Shown: positions 12,210 through 31,400 of the stretch, in pieces
How positions within the stretch are numbered: position 1 is the stretch's first letter
How the letters are laid out: each line of letters starts with the position of its first letter
NCBI GenBank assembly: GCA_019096065.1
Contig: JAGUCH010000001.1
Span: 4,154,001 to 4,218,000 of the forward strand
Reading direction: 5' to 3'
From: Paracyclopina nana
Taxonomy: Eukaryota > Arthropoda > Copepoda > Cyclopoida > Cyclopettidae
DNA length: 64,000 bases
Notes under the pieces: model-generated
Seen by the model: only the letters and a program-made list of their open reading frames with translations
Databases searched by the model: none
What the model was told of the DNA's origin: nothing
Program-made: the position numbers and the translations under genes

Positions 12210-15200
12210 TCATGATTTCTTAAGACTGCTCTTCTTCCGTCTGACAATTTCAGCCATTTCCGATTGTATCACATCCAAATTGTTTAAGACGTTGAACTCC
12301 ATCAGCGCAGTCATTCTATCGAAACTGAGGTTAGGATACACGAACCGCCAGATGGCGTAATTGTTTGTGTTGTCAAATATGTCGAAATCGGCAAAGTTTC
12401 TTTCTTCATCCGTTTCGCGGAGCACGCCGGGTGACTTGAACTGCCTAAAGTCCTTGTTAATCAAAGGGAAAAATATTACAACTGGGATCTCGTGATTGTC
12501 CACGTCCTTAAAAACGTAGCATTCCCTGACGGGTTCATCTAGAAATTGTTTTGCCATTTCTCGAATGGGAGGAAAGGGAATGTGGTGCAGATTCGCCCAC
12601 TTTTCAGCCATCAGCAGTTCCTGAAATTACATGAGGTAAACATTGACAAAATATGCATGCAGTACGTTCGTAATAAATATTTGTTACCCTAAAAGGTTTG
12701 GTGCAATCTGAGGCTCTGCTACTAAAATCACAGGTGACGTACAACTCTATTCCCCTCTGGGGCCTCAATGTCAAAGGGAAGGGTAGATTGAAACTTAGAC
12801 CCGAATCCACGAGGTAAATCTTCTTCTCCTCTGTCTTCATCGGCTCTCTATAGTCTTTGAAGTCATTGTCTGGAAAAATTGATTCATGCTGCTTAGTCGC
12901 GTAGTACATATAATGTATGCTGTTGGCTATAATTACCATCCAAGAGGAGCTCTTCCGTAGCGTTCGTGTACATGCAGTTTTCCATGACTGACAGCCCCCG
13001 GAGAGGGCTGAAAATGACACCTGCTCTAAAAGCTCTTGAGTCCAAGGGAGAAGATGTCAAAGCTTTCTCAAGGAATTGATCCCATTTGGAGCGCTCCTCT
13101 TCAATCGCTAAAAGCTTCTCTGATGAGGTCAGAGAGCTATGGAAGATTCTCATGTAGTTTTGTCGAGAAGCTTAATTATCAGGAATTATAGCTTACTTGT
13201 CTTCGCACTCCTCAAGGTTTGGGCTCGTGGCTGAGCTCGGAAGATTTCGAGTCAGTGGTGTTTTTTTGCCAAGACTTAATTTGGGAAGACTGCATTGCCT
13301 GAGAAGAGCGCCAAATGAGCTTTTTTTCTTTTGCATTTGCTCCTGCTGCTCGATTTCTTCTTGGAAAACTTGTACTTGCTCTGGGCTGAAACTTTCACTT
13401 TTGCTTCGGCGTCTTTCTTGTGATATTCCAAAGGTACTATTGTCTTCCTCCACATCTTCATCACAGCTGAACATTACTTCTGGACTGCTATCATCACTGC
13501 TAATCTTATCCTCTTCTTCATCTGGATCAGACATTGAAAACTGGGGGTCGTCTTGCTGGTTCACAATCTTGGAAGCTTCTTGATCCACACATCTTCATAA
13601 CAATTTCTTTTTTATCGCGTTAAATTGCTTTAAAAAGTAGTGTACCTGTTAAAAAAGTCCACGTCCTCCTCAGATTTGGAATTCTGTTGGAAGCCGCTTT
13701 GGTGCATGACCATTTTCAGTATCTCGCTCTGTCCGTTGCGGCCTTTTTCCTGGATTAGCCTCTTAAATAGGATGGTGAATGCACTTCCCCAAATGCCATA
13801 GAGGAAATGGAGGCGTACTTCGGGAAACGACTTCACTTTTTGCCCCATGTAAAATTTGCTGGCAAAATCGCTGGTCTTGAGGAACACGCCGTACTTTGGG
13901 ATGCCCACTTCGAATGGAGTAAATTCATACCATTCCTGGAATATCTTGGCAGACACATTGGACTTGACGTGGAGGCAGGTGTACATCGGCAATGGCGCCT
14001 GTCCCATGCTGATTTTGTCAGCTTGGTCCGACAGCCTTGCTTTCATCCGTCCTTTGAGCAACTGCTGCCCAACTAGGTAACCGTAGAAATCAGTGAAGCT
14101 TACTGGTTGACCGTTCACCGACTTGGAAATTATTTTGCGCAGGTATTTCGAAGACCAGGGAGGAGACAAGTGGACTTGCCAGTGTTTTTCCACGCATGCT
14201 CGGATCTCCGGAATGAGCTTGTGACTCACGTGGGGATCGTGAGTGAAATCCGGATGAGTGTACAAAGTTGCGAGATACCTTAAAATGCCTATTGTACATG
14301 CTGGAGAAATGCCAATTGCATATCAGTTACCAAGATGATCCTGACAGAGCTGAGGTATAGGTAACACAATCAATCAAGCCAGCATCCTCCATGGCTTTGT
14401 AAGCACCACTGTAGGCAATCATGGCTCGAAATCCGCCTCCAGAGGTCATCAGACAAACTGTGGGACACTAGGAACAGCCTCCATTATTTTAGTTCATTAT
14501 TAGTTTTCAGTGGAACGAAATTCGGTTTAAACTCCCCTATGTTGCTACCAAGAGGTGCAGCTCATATCATAAATTGAAGTACAAGCACTTATGGGAGAAA
14601 GTTGTCCTTTCCGGCATCACCGAAAGTTCCTTGGCTTTAGAAAGCTTCTTACCTCTGAAAGAGATTGAGGCCTGTCATCTTGGTCCAAAAATGAGCTAAA
14701 CCCAGCTAATACTTTTGGCCTTCGATTATGGAGGTAATCTTTCTCCTCTGGACACAAATCAAGGCCAAATCGTAGGCTAGACGAGGTGCTGCAAATGAAA
14801 AGTACAAATCAGCGCTGCCAGCTAAAGTGTAATATAGATGGGTTTCTTACTTTTCTTCATGCTTCAGCTTCACTTCAATTTTTGATCCCTAACAATGAAA
14901 TATGCGTCAATTAAATATGCGTCAATTATTCAAACAAGCCTTAATAGAGCGTCTGATTTCTCTTCAAAACTAGTTACACCTAATTGAGCCGATCATTTGA
15001 CAGACCCGCTCTTATTCAATTACTTCAGATTCTATTCAACCGACATTAGTGAGCACAAATTACGGTTCTTAGCTTCGTTGTTAGGCCATAAACTTCTCGC
15101 CTAATAGTTCTTTCTGGGAAAAAGTTGCTTACATTTTTGTAGGATATGACTACCGTGTTGTCAACTCCCTCTGCAAAGCCATAATAGTCGAAGATTTCTC

Positions 15201-18117: not shown

Positions 18118-21100
18118 TTAAAAGGGCACAATATCGTCTTCGCCCGGAGGTTTGGGCTCTCCAGCAGCAATACTAAACAGAGGAAGAAAGTCGGAATTTT
18201 TCTCCTCTGCAGCGGCAGGTGGCTTGGGTGCATCTTCGGGTTTTTTGACTTCTTCTACATCGTGTTTGGCGGAGGCGCCCAGAGAAGGTGATTTTCGCCT
18301 TTCGGGCTCTTCGGAGCGACGACGGCCTTCAGAAGAGTCCCTTCTATCCCTGTTGGACCGGAAATCTCGGTCTCTTTGCCGATCTCGGTCACCATCTCGA
18401 TTCCTATCCCGATCACGTCTATCATAGCTGCGATCGTGATACCGATGACCTCTGCTGTGGCCCCTGTGGTCCCTGTTTTTGTCGTGTGAATCTCTGCGGT
18501 GATAATCACGGTCTCTGTGATCTCGATCCTTGTCGCGCGAATCACGGTCACGAGAGCTACGATCACGCGAATCTCGACGACCATGATGATCTGGAGTTTG
18601 CTTAGCATTGGTCGGCCAGGGCATGGGAGGTTGGTTCTTGGGCTCATACCCCTGAATCCAAGGCCCAGCTGCAGCTGAAGCAGTCGAAGTTGACGTTGAG
18701 GCTAGCGTTGGTTTCGGAGCCGGTTTCTGAGTCGGTGTCGGCAGTTGGGCCTTCATCTCAGCTTCGGCCTTGGCAAGCAAGTCCGCATCTGACAATGTAC
18801 TTAGCAAGGACTTGGGCGGTTCTGGTTTGCTAGCAATAGCAACAGGCTTTTTCCTTGGATCCCTTGATGGCTCTGGAGCATTGCTGCTCACTTTGGGCGA
18901 GGCCTCAGCCCCACCAAAAAGAATGTTTGCAATACCCGAGGGTAGGCCCTTGAAAACGGGAGGAGCGGCCTTTGTGGCATCTTTCATCACCGCAGAAATC
19001 TCTTTTTTCTGCTCCTCAATCTTTTTGGCAAGCTTGCTCAGCGTGTCCTCCTGCTTCACTGAAGGAGCTGTCATGGGCATCTTCGGTGGCGGAGGACTCG
19101 GAGACTCACTCGAGCTGAAGGTGGGCTCGTCGAAACTGCTTGGTTTTTTCCTCTTCTTCTCCGAGCTCTTTTTCTTCGGTTCAAATGCACTCTCCGGGTC
19201 ATAGATTTCGTCTGGATCGTCTTCCGGACTAGCTGATTTAGAGACCGGTTTCACCACTGGAGTAGGAGTGTACTGCTTTTCTGACATGTCAAGCATGTCC
19301 TTGATGTCGTCATCCGTGATAGTCACAGCACTGGACTTCTTGGACTTTTTGCTAGATGACGACGAGCTGACCGGCCTTGAGTGGTGATCTCTCTTCCTCT
19401 TCGATCTGACAATTAAAGCTAGCAACACATCACTTCGATCGGCATCCAGGCCGGGGCCATCCAGAGGCTGAAGGCAAGGGTGGATTTGCTGGTTTTTAGG
19501 CAAGGCCAGAATGTAGCAGTCTTTAACCATCTTGCTGTTGTTGCCAACAACTCCGAACCTGTCGCGAGTCTTGAGGTAATGGAAAAAGGACATGTAGTTC
19601 ATCTTCTCGTCTTTTGACGCTGGCACCAGCGAAATCAGAAGAATCTCTTTTGTGGTCGATTCGGAGACTTGACGAATGTAATCCCACACTGTGGTGGGTG
19701 GGATTCGTCCCACGATCTTGAGGGTTTCCTTGAGGTCCACAGTTAGGTAGTCGGTAGATCCGGATACTTGAAGAGCTTTGACACTGAATCTGGCTACATC
19801 GGGCATGTCAATGTCTCCGTTCCATACGCTCGGATTTGTATTTTTGGTCAACTCTCGCTCCTCCTCGGGTGTCTTAATAGTAACCGTGGAGGTGACCTCG
19901 TTAACATCCTTTTTGTCATCATCATCTTCATTTAAGCCTACATAAAGTTAATAGCATGATATCATAAGATATACGCTTCGTACTGCAAGTAGCAAGTAGT
20001 TACCTGGAATATCAATTTCGACTGGCTCGTTGTCAGGGTCTTCCGGAACCTCCAGCACTTCCTCCTTGGCTTCAGCAGTTGTGACTTCGAGAGCTCCAGA
20101 GGAGGCCAGGATCTCTTCAACTTTCTTCTCAATGTCCTCGGGACGGACAATTGGCTTGTCATCTTTTTCTTCCTTGATTGCCTTCTTCTCAGGTTCTTCC
20201 TTGCTGCGTCGGTCATCCTTATTACCACTGTGGTGCCTCTGGTGATGACGTTTGTTTGAGCTTGAGCTGCTTGAACTGTGCCTAGAGGAGTGGTGGCTTC
20301 GGTGCTTGTCACTCGAGGACGATTTGTGACTGCTACTTTTGTGATGCTTATGCCGATCCCTTTCTCGACGCTTGTCCCTCTCGATCTTGGCAACCAAGAA
20401 AGCATCTTCGGTCATGTTACCGGCACACACATCACAGTCCTTGTCAAACTCGTGCTTGGAGTGGTCCCACGTTTTCGAACTGACCTTGTGACGCTTCTCC
20501 TTTGACGCCTCGGCCACAATCTCATCAGGTAGCTTGATGACACTCTCCGTCTTTTTGATGGCATTTGGAGCTTCGACAATTTGGTCGCCCTTGTGCGTTT
20601 TGATCATCATTTTCGACCCCATTTGCAGCAACTCGAGCTCATGTGACTTAATTTTCTCAATGTCCTGCTTGAGCTCGGCCTGGCGCCATTCCTTGAGCTC
20701 CTTATTGGCCAACTCCTCCGGGGACATTGCCACCAGAGCTTTGGGGGCAATGTGACCGCTGACGATCTTACGGAATAACCCATTGTTTTTTTCATCTTTG
20801 ATATTGAAAACTAAACTCCTATATTTGGCTTTGTACTTTGCACACACATTCCTGTTATGAAGAATGTATAACTCTCGCTCGATGGACTTAACCAGTTCCT
20901 CGAGCTTTTCAGCCTCCAGCTTAACGTCCTCATTTTTCAACAATTTACCCTTCAAGGCCTCCCGCAATCCCTTGGCAGCATTGTCACGGATCGGCTTGGA
21001 CTCTTCTTTGCCAGACTTTTTAGCCGACGGGCTGATAACAGAAGAGGGTGTGGTCGATGAAGACATCGAATCACGTCGTGTCGAGGAGTCGCGTCTATGA

Positions 21101-23540
21101 GACGACGAGGACGATGAAGTCGTCGAGTGAACAACAATTGACGAATAACCTGACGACTTTTTGGACTTTTCATGATCGTGATTGCTCGACTTTTTGACTG
21201 GAGTCTTGTCATCTTTCTTGTCGGATGAAGACACGTGTGGCTTCTTCTCAATGGAGGCAGTAGTCACGGTAATTTTTGAGGTCGTCGATATGCCCGATGG
21301 CGTCGGCTTTTTGGCTTCAATCTTCGGAGTAGCAATAGAATTGAGCAAGTTAGCCTTCACCTTGTCGCTGTTGACTTTAGCAGCACCTTCATGCTTTGTG
21401 GGCGTTTTCTTGATGGCCTTTTTGGACCTGAAAAATTAGGGAGAAATGATGCAGTTTCTGCTTCAGTTCTTTGCATTTGCCTCAATTTATCTGAAAGCAC
21501 AACCTTCCCCGGCTAAACGAATGAATTCCAAACTAGGACAAACCGTCATCACTAAGTGATTAATAGCCGAGTGAAGCGGAGCAATCATTTGATACTCATC
21601 TATTGACTAGGGAGAGAGAATTATGGCTTACCCATAGAACTTTGAGGTGTTTGTACCATAAAACTTGGAGCTAGGATCATTGCTAGGCAAGACCACGTGA
21701 TAGCTAGGATGGGAGAGTAGCCAAGATTGCAGGGTATTCTCAGTGGGAGCGTTAGGACCATTGAGCATGGTGTTTGTCTGAGGCTCCATCACTAAAACGT
21801 GACTTTTCATCATCATGTTTGGAGTGGTCAGGTTCTTGGGCTTGTCCTTCTTGAGCACTTCAATTGCTTTGCTTGCGTGCTTGATGATGCAAGCTTCCGA
21901 GCAGAATATTGATCCTTCTTTTGGCGGCTTCTCACAAACATAGCAAACTCTCTTCTTTTCCTCCTACAAAACGAAAGTAACCTCCTAAAAACGAAAAAAT
22001 AGAAGTGAACTGACCTTTTTGGCTGCAGTGGTGGACTCTTTAGAGGGTGCCCTTTTTAAGAGGGAGGCTTTCTTTTTAGGCGTAGTAGAAGCAGCAGGAG
22101 ACGTTTTGTTAGTCTTAATAACTTCCTCTCTCTCCTTGAGCTTTTCTTTAAGCAGCTGTGCTTCCTCTTTTTCCTCGTTCGTTTTGCATTTGGGACAGGT
22201 CCACTCGTTCCCTGCTTCTTCCATCTCCTTGCCCATCTTTTTGGTGATGCCGACGCATTTGCCGTGAAACCAGTCGACGCAAGAGTCGCAGCAAATCATG
22301 AATCGGTTGTTGTGGGGCTGCTGACAAATGCACCACAATTTGTTGGGATCATCGTCGTCAGCCTCATCATAGTCATCATCATCATCGTCGTCGTCATCTT
22401 CTTCCAAGCCCGCGACATCATCATCAACATCTTTGGATGCCTCAAGAATTGACGTAGGTTGTGGTTGGTCTGGTGCCTCACTTTCGTTCAAGAACTCATC
22501 CTCGACTTCAATGGTGGAGTCATCAGCGCTCGTGTCTGCAACTTTTTTAGCTGCATCAGAGGCTGCTTCCGCTTCTGCTGCAGCCCTTTTCTTAGCCATC
22601 GAGTCATTTGGGCCCTTGTAGGAGTACTCAAAGTCTCCTGCCTTCAAATGAGCAGGCAGCTTCCTCTCTCTCTTTGGCCTAAAGGGTTCACTTAGCAAAA
22701 AATCACAATGGTAAATTGAATGAAGAACTTACCGCCCAGAGGCCACAGTGGGCGTTGGGGTGACTGGCGTTTTCTCAACTTGCAGTCGGTCAGCGGATTC
22801 CGACTCGTTGGTAACGCTTGGGTCTTCGCCCATGGACTGGCGCCTCATGGCTTCCTTCTCCTTTTTAAGGAGCTCCTGATTCTCCTTGCGTATCCTCTCT
22901 GCTTCTTCTTTCAGCTCTCGGTCGATTTGTCGTTGACTTTTGCGACGATTCGAGGCAGCCGGGTCAGGACCTTTTTTGCCGCCCTTCTTGCCTGCCTTGG
23001 CAGTCGATGCTGGTTGTTTCACTTCCGCATTGGGAATGAGAGGGGGTGGAGGTCCGATCGCCTCAGCTTCAGTGCCACTGAGCAAATCTCCCAAGCTTTC
23101 GTTGGGGTTATTGTCAGGATTGGCCAGCACTTCTCCAAGGAAGTCCTTGGCCTCTTCCGACCTGAGGACATTCTCGAGACGATTAATTTGCTCCTGGTCC
23201 AGCATGAGGATAGGATTCGACGAAACTGCCGATTTTGGATCAAGATCGGTAGATGTGTCCAAGCCTGTGGCAGGAGGGTCGAGTGGGACATCGGATTCGT
23301 TGCCCGAAACTCGAACAAAGGTGACCGTGGCTGACGGCTGATTGGAGTCTGAAAATTGCAACGCTCGGATAATTCATGTGGAGCAGCGAGAAACAGGTTT
23401 TTCAACTTACCAATAATGCTTTGAAGCGTCTTTTCGTCATAATTGATTTCGCCGTTATCGTTGATGACGATCGTCACAGACTTGCTGTCCACGTCGAGAG
23501 AGTCGGCGTTGGGGGCGTCGGAGAAGCTAGAGCTCGCCAT
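18118..23540 (-). CDS. PHD-TFIIS-M-SPOC protein (PHF3/DIDO1/PPS family)
   Basis: Six exons join in phase to about 1665 aa: 23540-23411, 23348-22733, 22690-22015, 21963-21632, 21427-20004 and 19937-18118. Domains in order: acidic and charged N-terminus; an Asp-rich run of about ten residues; a PHD finger at roughly 365-420 (CICQQ, CCDSC-DWFHG-C, WTCPKC), the type that reads histone H3 tails; a second Cys-rich patch (VCYVCEKPP, FCSEAC); a TFIIS central domain at roughly 725-860 (RDNAAKGLREAL, ELYILHNR, KYRSLVFNIKD, MSPEELA); and a SPOC domain at roughly 1085-1240 (VWNGDIDMPDVARF, YLTVDL). The C-terminal tail is rich in Arg-Asp dipeptides. This architecture defines the PHF3/DIDO family (Drosophila pps), nuclear proteins that bind phosphorylated RNA polymerase II CTD through SPOC and influence elongation and splicing. 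The ATG at 23540 is the first in this frame and has a good context (ATAATGG). Confidence 0.95.
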
Positions 23541-26530: not shown

Positions 26531-26605
26531 CTTATTTTTCCCATCAGATCAGTGGCCCGTGCGTATTAGCACGTTTTAAGCCAAAAATCGTCATTCAAAA
26601 AAGTT
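26531..26605 (-). promoter_or_regulatory. SECIS-like element in the MsrA 3'UTR
   Basis: On the minus strand ATGA (26594-26591) and TGAT (26546-26543) form the SBP2-binding quartet of tandem G-A pairs. Between them a helix of about 11 positions (26589-26579 with 26557-26547) has nine Watson-Crick or wobble pairs and two central mismatches. After 13 bases comes the unpaired AAAA (26577-26574), the apical adenosines of a SECIS. A five-pair mini-stem CGTGC/GCACG (26573-26569 with 26562-26558) closes a six-base loop, which is form II geometry. A short U/A helix (U run 26602-26597, A run 26539-26535) lies below the quartet. A SECIS recruits SBP2 and eEFSec so that in-frame UGA is read as selenocysteine. 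Confidence 0.88.
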
Positions 26606-26641
26606 GGGCTAGTTTGTGCAAAATAATAATTAAAAAGCTGT

Positions 26642-27674
26642 TCAATATTTGCTCTTCATTTGTTTTGACACGTATTCAATCATTTTTTCGTTGAGACCTA
26701 GTTTAGTGGCCTCAGTGGCGAAATCCGCAGCCTTGCCATATCCTCCAATGTACCCATTCAAGCGAGCTGCGACGTGGGATTTGATCAGCTCGTCGCCAGG
26801 GTTGATTCCCAGCGACTCAAGGAGCCAAGGATGGTGTTGCAGCATGTATTTTTGATGGTAACTGAAACAGGAAATTGCACTTTCATTAGTTTCTAAACTA
26901 ATTCAGCAGGAAGGACGCAAACGCGTGGAAAATCAAAAGACTTCTGCTATACAGCTTGCGTAACATGAAACATGAAAGTATTTTCATTTACGCAACCATT
27001 TCTACTTAGGAGCTAATGTCAACTCACTCTTCAGCTTCGTAAAATTCCTTTGCCGGCAGAATGTGAGTTTGGATGGGTCGATTCTTCTTCTTGCTCATCT
27101 CAGCTTTGGTGTCTTCCGCCAATTTGCGCTGCTCCTCATCATGATAGAAAATAGCCGACATGTATTGCCTTTTGCAGTTTGACGTTGGGTCATGGTTGTT
27201 CCAGAAAATGTCGAGCAGCTCAGAGTAGGACGTCTCAGCGGGGTCATAGTCGACGTCAATGGTCTCAGTGTGATCCCCTAACGAGTAGTATGTAGGATTG
27301 GCCTTCGTTCCTCCTGCATACCCGACCCTGGTTCGGATGATGCCTTTAGCGCATCCGAACTGGGCCTCGGGAAACCAAAATCAGGACATTCCGAAGGAAG
27401 CCTTCTTCGTCGCAACTTCGGGCTCGTACAATGCCATGCTTGGGCTGCCAAGATCTCTCACCTGAAAATGAGTTGGGGATGTAGTTGACAGTGGCGGAAA
27501 ATTGCTAAATAGGATATCGCACTCGCAAAGTTCTGCAAACTTTTCAGTTAGTGGACACACATTAGTCAAGTTGACCTTGATCCGAAAAGTGAAGCTTTTT
27601 GGATCGTTGAGAGGGTCCAAACTGGAGTAAGGAACATAGCCTTCGCCCCCGTGGATTTCAAGGTCGGTGAACAT
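26642..27674 (-). CDS. MsrA: Selenocysteine-containing methionine sulfoxide reductase A
   Basis: The core exons are 27461-27028 and 26861-26642 (phase 2 junction, EAE-D-YHQKY). A probable first exon, 27674-27576, joins in phase 0 through a weak donor (AAG|GTCAAC); the full model is 250 aa. If that exon is wrong, the ATG at 27437 gives 209 aa. The catalytic motif, GMGCFW in most MsrA and GMGCFWAP in Drosophila Eip71CD, reads GMS-TGA-FW here, with TGA at 27383-27381. MsrA homology continues without a break afterwards: RTRVGYAGGTK, DHTETIDVDYDP, FWNNHDP, RQYMSAIFYHDEEQ, EDYHQKY. The TGA therefore stands exactly at the catalytic Cys, and the 3'UTR carries a SECIS-like hairpin. The enzyme reduces methionine-S-sulfoxide in proteins and free Met. 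Two further Cys, 10 and 69 residues after the Sec, could act as resolving residues. A plain nonsense mutation is unlikely given the SECIS. Confidence 0.9.
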
Positions 27675-28450
27675 GGCTACTGAAAAATGTTGATTTCACT
27701 TACTGCCGAGGAAGAAAATCTAGACGCAGCAGATCCAGCAATGAGACGTAAAATGTTCATTCAGGTATGACTTTTATCAACTTTTCGTTGCAATGATATT
27801 ACTTACATAAGCTAAGAATCCTGAACGTTCCAGTATGCTACTACAGTGCTGGGCTACTTTAGGTAGAGGTTAAATACCGATCACAATCAATTGTAAAGGC
27901 CTTGTTCAAGCAAATGCGTTCGTTATTTTTCAGGCAAAAGGCGCTCATTTTTCGAAAATTGAGGCCATAAAAATTGCATCATAATGCAAAATACACAAAT
28001 TTAAGGATCTTCAACATTTTTACAAGTGCTAATAATATCAAAGTAATATTTCTTGAGTCTTTTATGATGTAAATTGTCTAAAGATCCGCTTAGGTTTGTT
28101 TTGTTTTTTTCCGCATATTGACAGGCTTGTCAAATCACGTTAAAAAGAAAAAGCTACCAGATGTAAGAGTTGATGAAAATAACGACAAATGCTTGAAGTT
28201 TTTGAAACAGCTGTTCAAATTTTTTTTCGTTTACTGCTTATTGCGTTTTTTATTAAACTAAATTGATTGAAAGCTAATCAATTGCGTCAAAATAACAAGT
28301 ACTTAAATTTACATTCTGGCGCTTTCACGAACTAATCGATTCTAAAGAGAGGATCCTTGCTCGTACCACTGTAATTTCTAGACGCCATTCTCTAATTCTC
28401 TTTCATACAGAAAAAGTTGGGAAATCGCATCAAATCGTAAGCAGCCAAAG
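27675..28450. other. Intergenic region between divergent genes
   Basis: This is shared upstream sequence of the MsrA (-) and NonA-like (+) genes. A TTTTTCAG just before 27674 on the minus strand suggests a 5'UTR intron in MsrA. No other coding segment is visible. Confidence 0.4.
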
Positions 28451-31400
28451 ATGAGCGCCGCCGAGACTGCTAAGCCGGATGGCGCAACGCCAAAACCCGC
28501 AGAAAAGCCAACTTCTGAAGGCCCTTCGACCCAGTCACCCTCCGGAACCCCTCGGGGTGGCCGTGGCGGTGGAGGTCCCATGAGAGGCCAAGCAAACAAC
28601 CGAGGTGGAAATCAAGGAGCTCGAGGTCGTGGGTCGCCCTACGCTCGAGGTGGAAGAGGTGCCCAAGGAAACAGAGGTAGAGTCAACAAAAGTGCAAAAA
28701 TATGCTCCCCAACCTACCGTGTTGGGACAGTTGTTTGATCAGCTTTATGCTTCTCTGATTCATCATGAAAACCTTGGCACACATAAATGTCATGAACAAC
28801 TTTGGGGCATTCTTGATCTGGAGATAAGCGCAGCGTTGTGTTCTACACTTCTTCCTCGTAAACCAGCGCAAAGCGATGTGAACTTACGCGCAAACTTGAG
28901 CTAAAAAAGCGCAATGCGATGCGAAAATAGCAATTATCGATTTTTAAGTAGGATAGAGCCCCAAAGTGAAGAGCTTAGCACTTATATCTTGGCGTCAAAC
29001 AATGATGAATCAACTGTCTTGTATCTGTATCATAATCAACTTCATTTCACAGGCTTTTCATGACCCCAATGAGCATTATCATAAGGACTTGACATTTGGG
29101 GTCTTCTTTCAAATTTACCAGCCGAGCTGCTTTAAACATTCAGGAGTTCACTTATGTAGTTTATTTAACAAACACATCTGCTCTAGGTAATAAGTGCCAC
29201 GAATAAGTCATAGCGAAAAAAGTACTGAAACCATAGCGAAAAAAGTACTGAAACTTTTCTTGGCGCACTCAAGTACACTTTCCTGAAAAGTAACGTTCTT
29301 TTTTATAGTATTATTATAACAGTTGATGACGCTCGGCTGGATGCTGCAAACTTGAGTGACTTGTTGTTGACAGCTTAAATTAGCAGAAACGATCGTTATG
29401 TCTTTTTATGATGATGACTGCTTCCTGCTTGCAAGGTCAATAGCCATTTTCATAGCTTCTTAAAATTGGACATCTTTTTTAGCAAAAAATCAGAATCCGG
29501 TCTGGATGACGTTATCAATCTCAAAAGGGGTACTTCAATATCGATTCCATATTGATTGCCAAGCTCAAATTACTTGGTGGATAACGTAGAATTTAAAAAC
29601 ATTTCACGCTCTCTGAAAAAGCTGATCAATGCTCTGGCGGATTTTCCGCTTTTTGAATGTAGATTGAGCTTTTTTGCCACGAAAACACTGCTGATTTTAG
29701 GTGGAGGTCGAGGTGGTTCCAATCAATCTAATGCCAATAATTTTGGCAATAATAGTCGAGGATCCGCTGACCGATCTTTCGGCGGAGGAAGCGAAAGAGG
29801 CCGTTTTGATCGTGTTCTCGACAAGCTTAACTCTATCCAAGGCCCGACTTTGGAGCTGCCACCTTTGGACTCTGCTGAAAAGAAATTCAGTGGCAGGGCT
29901 CGTATCTATATTGGCAACTTTAGTAACGAATTGTCCGAAGAGCAATTGAAGGAAATCGTCTCAACCATTGGGGAGGTTGGCGAGATGTTCTTCAACCGCG
30001 AGAAAAACTTCGCATTCGTGCGAATGGGCTCCCGGTTTGAGGCTGAAAAAGTTAAGCGAGAGTTAGACGGCCAAATGAAAAATGGCCGACCCCTCAAGGT
30101 CAGATTTTCGCCTCATCAGGCAGCTGTCAAGGTCACCAACTTGGGCCCATGGGTGTCCAACGAGCTGTTGCACCGCGCCTTCTCCATCTTCGGCGAAATT
30201 GAGCGCTGCATTGTTTTTGTGGACGAGCGTGGTCGATCCAGAGGCGAAGGCATCGTCGAGTTCGAGAAAAAGCCTTTTGCACTAGAGTGCGTCAAGAGGT
30301 GCTCTGATGGATGCTTCTTCCTGACTTCCAGCCTAAGGCCCGTTATAGCCGAAATCAAGGATGAGGCTGAGGACGATGATGGAATGCAAGAGAAAATGCT
30401 CCACAAACGCAACCACGAATTCCAAGCTGAGCGCGAGGTGTGTAACTATTAGGAATTTAAGCTAGTAGTCAGGATTGGGTCAGAAACATTTTGAATGCGA
30501 GTTTTAAATGCGCCGATGTTCTCCATAAAATAATCCGGAGCTCGCTTTCTTCGTCTCGTTGGGTGCCTAGTGTTAAGATCGAATCAGGGGAGTGTTTTAA
30601 GATCGAAATGAGGGTGTGTGCTGAGACCTTCAAGTTTCCTGTGACATGTTATACCCAGTTCGACTGGTCTTCATTGAGAATGTCACATCAACCTTAAGCA
30701 AAGTTACATTTCAGGCAACTGCAAATTGAACCTAATGCATATTCATCTACATAGTGAGGCTTATTAACATAAAACAATATTGTAAGATATTAAATTTAGA
30801 TCTTATAACTGAGTTGAATCGATCTTAAAACTTCGATCTTAGCAATGTTCCCCGTCTCGTTGTTAGCTTTTTAGATCGCCCGATTAAGGTACAGACAAGA
30901 TACTGACAATGGCATCCCTAGGTACTGCAGTTCCATTGGCTCCGGCCAGATTTTAGCTTTTATATTCGAAAACCTTTTTTTTCTTCTTTATTTGCTTCAT
31001 TGCATATTGTTGACAAGCTTTCCACATCCTTGCAATCAATCTTAACGGCTGTGGTTGTTATGCGTAGGGAAATGCTTCTGATCTGATCTTGGCTACAATT
31101 AATTAGCCTGCCGAAACCCATAGCTTCTATACTCTAATCTTTAGACGGGTCCACGTTTTGCCGCACCTGGCTCTTTCGAATTTGAATACGGGGCTAAATG
31201 GAAGGCTTTGTACGACATGAAAAAGCAAAAGATGGAAGCGCTTGAGCGTGAAATGAAACTTGAAGAGGACAAGCTCATTGCCCAAATGGAGTTTGCTAGA
31301 TATGAACACGAAACCGAAGCTCTCAGAGAGCAGCTGCGGCAAAGGGAGGCTAGCCGAGAGCAGCATAAAAATCAATGGGAAGAGCGGGAACGCCAAATGC

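Follow-up and report, generated by a model that had tools for sequence, protein, structure and literature searches.

A gene of the copepod Paracyclopina nana that very probably encodes a selenocysteine-containing MsrA, and the signals around its UGA codon

MsrA, a peptide methionine-S-sulfoxide reductase, repairs oxidised methionine, and in bacteria SECIS elements sit in the coding region. A selenocysteine (Sec) form of MsrA was reported in the centipede Strigamia maritima, in Daphnia pulex, in Ixodes scapularis and in Branchiostoma, and for the centipede a SECIS downstream of each selenoprotein gene and the full Sec machinery were described (PMC4244043); Sec-MsrA has also been called widespread in marine invertebrates (PMC3473315). 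Among solved structures, 4LWJ is the MsrA of Clostridium oremlandii, in which Cys16 is catalytic and the reductant is glutaredoxin rather than thioredoxin (PMC4333827).

The gene described here has the same Sec form as those of the non-insect arthropods and Branchiostoma and, as in the centipede, it comes with a SECIS and the machinery genes. Set beside the published descriptions of Strigamia, Daphnia and Ixodes, it belongs to the copepod lineage, and a hairpin after the UGA and a missing C-terminal Cys are described here. With the MsrA of C. oremlandii (PDB 4lwj, 4w8c; Pfam PF20939) it has in common the catalytic Sec, the catalytic and C-terminal helical domains and the active-site residues, but that enzyme is bacterial and is described as being without any Cys (PMC4333827), whereas the copepod protein has Cys56 and Cys115; moreover, unlike bacterial SECIS elements, the copepod SECIS lies in the 3′UTR. 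Insect MsrA is also a member of this family (named rows of our homologue set are 52-59% identical) but has a catalytic Cys and usually a C-terminal Cys. The preliminary description of this DNA, which set a Sec-MsrA in an arthropod against the selenoprotein loss of many insect lineages, was right about the gene, but the surprise is weaker, since Sec-MsrA had already been published for non-insect arthropods and marine invertebrates and the host is not an insect; thus, the copepod gene is another case of a known Sec-MsrA. No earlier report of copepod selenoproteins was found among the listed titles and abstract openings of the open-licence literature. The locus is of value as a well-supported Sec-MsrA in a copepod in which no MsrA other than the Sec form was detected, the sole match listed in the 91.95-Mb genome (91,952,342 bases, 10 contigs) being this gene; in our view, its less expected parts, namely the post-UGA hairpin and the pattern of the resolving Cys, are worth following.

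In the window (the whole 64-kb stretch of DNA that was analysed), the MsrA gene occupies 27760-26642 of the minus strand in three exons with GT/AG introns, and its open frame of 236 residues has TGA as residue 46 (Table 1). The preliminary description placed the start at ATG 27674, opening MFTDLE..., which we had to abandon as it falls within intron 1. From the sequence, translation likely starts in exon 1, where MNILRLIAGSAASRFSSSA would be spliced to VRDLGSPSMALYEP...; the N terminus MNILRLIAGSAASRFSSSA-VRDLGSPSMALYEP resembles that of relatives, e.g. P0002 and P0010, with MNxLRxxA... followed by a xxLGxPxM stretch, and by eye MNILRLIAGSAASRFSSSA looks like a mitochondrial-targeting sequence. 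Past the TGA the frame was said to run on as MsrA for more than 180 codons, and we counted 190 residues, crossing one intron and meeting no further in-frame stop. Neighbouring frames of the window carry SPOC and TFIIS_M domains (18121-21360, minus strand), a two-RRM plus NOPS protein (29556-30449, plus strand) and a PLA2_B lysophospholipase domain (13633-14265, minus strand).

Table 1. Features of the MsrA locus (window coordinates) and other loci named in the text
Feature	Position	Strand	Remark
MsrA exon 1	27704..27760	minus	likely start ATG 27760; MNILRLIAGSAASRFSSSA
MsrA intron 1	27462..27703	minus	GT..AG; contains ATG 27674
MsrA exon 2	27028..27461	minus	catalytic domain; in-frame TGA inside
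Sec TGA codon	27381..27383	minus	residue 46, catalytic Cys position; GMS-TGA-FW
Hairpin after TGA	27321..27371	minus	9 nt 3′ of TGA; Sec-redefinition-element-like, putative function
MsrA intron 2	26862..27027	minus	GT..AG
MsrA exon 3	26642..26861	minus	last part of the catalytic domain, and helical domain; stop TGA 26644-26642
MsrA C terminus	~26645-26690	minus	no Cys
SECIS core	26543..26594	minus	AUGA to UGAU, AAAA apical loop, 5-bp mini-stem
Rfam match of MsrA SECIS	26532-26602	minus	includes lower helix
AATAAA	26510..26515	minus	polyadenylation signal
GPx4-like, GPx1-like, SelT, SelW, SPS2, one Cys-GPx	L031, L032, L034/L037, L036, L038, L029		TGA/GPx loci group
SECIS_1 place after GPx4-like gene	L014
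ArsS-like TGA	C4:2975784-2975782 (L015)	minus	second SECIS_1 place after this gene
Second tRNA-Sec family match	C6:1720756-1720836 (L003)

The spliced protein matches PMSR with 148.9 bits (Pfam cut-off 23.7) and MsrA_helical with 42.5 bits, and its best solved relatives are the MsrA entries 4u66, 7c13 and 4lwj, in which residue 46 aligns with chain position 16. The frame reads GMS-TGA-FWFPE, and this alignment bears out the preliminary description in placing the TGA at the catalytic position. The active-site residues of the solved enzyme, Tyr47, Glu55, Gln89, Tyr90, His137 and Tyr140 (PMC4333827), are identical in six of six, being Y77, E85, Q118, Y119, H166 and Y169 beside U46. With no Cys at its C terminus, the copepod protein would probably work as a 1-Sec enzyme, and by analogy with the C. 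oremlandii MsrA its oxidised Sec is probably reduced by an external thiol such as glutathione or glutaredoxin. Taken with the data below, we are highly confident that the gene encodes a Sec-containing MsrA.

For comparison with homologues, 7997 sequences were scored, 7899 passed the threshold and the best 120 were kept. At the catalytic position these show W in 53 rows and C in 39, 25 rows start after it and three skip it; in the 35 top-scoring rows there are 33 W, two without a residue and no C. In the named rows from insects and mites the residue is C. None of the 53 W rows comes from NCBI, and we suppose that W in these relatives would be TGA translated by table-4 gene callers, not TGG. The 53 W rows could also be read as a reassignment of nuclear TGA to Trp in this lineage, to which we give almost no credence: it is contradicted by the TGA stops of MsrA itself and of the TXNDC9 frame in the same genome, Trp would displace the catalytic residue, and tRNA-Sec and the remaining machinery are present (see below). 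The expectation that standard annotation breaks such genes was borne out in all seven named crustacean and echinoderm rows of the best 120 (Halocaridina, Penaeus, Panulirus, Petrolisthes, Amphibalanus, Acanthaster and Lytechinus), which start after the TGA position or skip it. Annotation can thus hide Sec-MsrA genes by truncating them, splicing around the codon or, probably, writing it as Trp.

The C terminus differs between the two kinds of rows. A Cys in the last 14 residues was found in 37 of the 39 C rows versus 24 of the 50 W rows whose C terminus is complete (the other three of the 53 were dropped as truncated); since the rows are related, this contrast describes a pattern and does not amount to a test.

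Between the stop codon and AATAAA, the 3′UTR carries a SECIS with AUGA at 26594, then 13 nt, AAAA, the mini-stem CGUGC/GCACG and a closing UGAU ending at 26543, so all the parts listed earlier (ATGA/TGAT quartets, apical adenosines and five-pair mini-stem) were recovered. In 5000 dinucleotide shuffles of the 132-nt MsrA 3′UTR under the same strict rule, any strict site arose in 10, and none was as stable as -15.0 kcal/mol. Across both strands of the window the strict pattern has 12 sites, MsrA's included, or ~0.011 expected per 132-nt UTR, and the MsrA SECIS ranks second in stability among the 12. The Rfam model SECIS_1 gives it 20.5 bits (E 1.1), below the gathering score of 35; by plain folding, the region reaches a modest z-score (-1.89). 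A genome-wide SECIS_1 search listed two places, one after a GPx4-like gene (26.3 bits) and one after an ArsS-like gene (23.6 bits); the MsrA SECIS was not among them, and the SECIS candidates of the other four TGA genes were missed as well. As both places lie just past TGA genes, the model is specific here, yet it misses most elements. In a MAFFT alignment of SECIS from five other genes, the structural parts failed to line up.

An assembly or base-calling error would turn the gene into an ordinary Cys MsrA with TGC or TGT as the true codon, and a single base does separate TGA from the Cys codons. In that case, the SECIS in a 3′UTR of this length would be a coincidence of the frequency seen in the shuffles (10/5000), and C is missing from 81 of the 120 best homologues, which show W, a gap or no residue at the position; all of the top 35 are among them. 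Hence we regard such an error as highly improbable and retain a genuine Sec codon.

The genome contains the genes to decode it. A tRNA-Sec with anticodon TCA scores 78.8 bits; SBP2 is the sole PDB match at E <= 1 of an SBP2 exon (E 4.8e-21); an eEFSec exon has a domain match of 100.2 bits and the PDB match eEFSec 5izk (E 2.2e-66); SPS2 is present and itself carries a TGA (LKG-TGA-GCK), and SepSecS exons and PSTK were found. SepSecS, SPS2 and PSTK were matched exon by exon, below whole-protein cut-offs. The preliminary description had made Sec decoding hang on tRNA-Sec and SBP2, and both are in the genome along with eEFSec and SPS2; its proposal that this arthropod decodes UGA as selenocysteine is supported by the SECIS, the machinery genes and the other TGA-bearing genes. 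Another hit to the tRNA-Sec family, scoring 47.7 bits with the cut-off at 47, is perhaps a Ser tRNA.

The hairpin downstream of the Sec codon makes this region the most stable part of the MsrA coding sequence: the stretch from +6 to +66 folds with -27.3 kcal/mol, which is a z of -3.43 relative to 2000 synonymous shuffles, four of them as low. These values were calibrated on 190 control windows from 17 coding pieces of the same genome, including MsrA and selenoprotein pieces away from the UGA. The calibrated z is -3.63 for MsrA, -5.18 for the GPx1-like gene and -3.57 for SPS2, with none of the 190 controls as low; it is weaker for SelW (-2.13, eight controls as low) and SelT (-1.99, 10 controls as low). 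The GPx4-like gene gives -0.22 (97/190), with an apparent intron donor within the tested stretch, and the Cys codon of Cys-GPx gives -0.40 (84/190). After the ArsS-like TGA the fold is -11.9 kcal/mol, a value outside the 190-window calibration.

Sec redefinition elements (SREs), stable stem-loops near the Sec UGA in the coding region, are known from several selenoprotein genes, SPS2 and SEPN1 among them (PMC4561486). The MsrA hairpin is like them in being stable, just 3′ of the UGA and beyond what coding constraint gives; compared with those of SEPN1 and SPS2, it sits in MsrA and also in the GPx1-like gene, and the likeness is one of position and stability only. Among the listed titles and abstract openings of the open-licence literature, no earlier report of a redefinition element in MsrA was found. 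We suggest that the hairpin just 3′ of the MsrA UGA may aid Sec insertion.

A strong hairpin would also suit readthrough of the UGA with another amino acid in place of Sec, and Sec-independent readthrough of a conserved UGA was proposed for insect SPS1-UGA (PMC4561486). However, insect SPS1-UGA is described there as having no SECIS and Hymenoptera as lacking most of the machinery, and both are present here. A dying gene with a truncated protein fits poorly with 190 codons free of other in-frame stops past the UGA and with GT/AG splice sites. We consider readthrough of this kind or decay very unlikely, and Sec remains the preferred reading of the codon.

On this reading of the UGA as Sec, the codon would be decoded by tRNA-Sec delivered by eEFSec, and SBP2 on the SECIS, whose quartet lies 620 nt downstream in the 3′UTR, would recruit the delivery. 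The terminal UGA is only 47 nt from the quartet and would act as the stop. The minimum spacing between UGA and SECIS was given as 51-111 nt for Dio1 (PMC3316567), which may explain why one UGA would serve for Sec and the other for termination; the margin is small, as the ArsS-like UGA lies only 68 nt from its quartet by a count by eye. Both the insertion of Sec and the enzyme activity of the copepod MsrA are what we infer from the gene and its surroundings.

Beyond this locus, we tentatively propose, with somewhat less than even confidence, that two things hold together: that two signals commonly serve Sec insertion in this copepod lineage, namely a 3′UTR SECIS and a strong post-UGA hairpin (MsrA, GPx1-like, SPS2, perhaps SelT and SelW), and that, once MsrA carried Sec, its C-terminal resolving Cys could be lost repeatedly, with a change in the reductant on which the enzyme depends. 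Two testable ideas follow, namely that Sec can reshape an enzyme, as by loss of the C-terminal Cys, and that hairpins help Sec codons.

At least six other genes of the genome have TGA at a known Sec site. The GPx4-like gene reads NVASK-TGA-GKT and the GPx1-like gene NTASL-TGA-GTT, and a third GPx gene carries Cys instead; in SelT and SelW, too, the known Sec position is an in-frame TGA. Downstream of these genes, the strict SECIS pattern occurs for GPx4-like, GPx1-like, SPS2 (-15.3, one site in 3 kb) and SelW (weak, -6.2), and it finds nothing for SelT. A looser pattern yields sites for SelT (57 nt past the stop), SelW (122 nt past the stop) and SPS2, which we treat as candidates only; this pattern is unspecific, matching 129 places when both strands of the window are counted, or roughly one for each kb of strand.

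The ArsS-like radical SAM gene has apparent introns and a C-terminal motif GSS-TGA-LGALTG, with the TGA seven codons ahead of a TAG stop and the SECIS_1 match beginning 38 nt past it. Its three exon pieces match TIGR04167 (rSAM_SeCys) with 64.9, 285.2 and 38.5 bits, none of them reaching the 300 bits set as cut-off for the whole protein. The best protein relatives show 77% identity, the animal Priapulus 66%, and named bacteria and the alga Chloropicon 62-65%. Opposite this gene, on the plus strand, is TXNDC9, whose best named hits fit a copepod host: Tigriopus californicus (67%), Caligus and Lepeophtheirus (62% each); the copepod Eurytemora, at 56%, ranks below some molluscs. The ArsS-like gene probably encodes an animal selenoprotein of the ArsS type.
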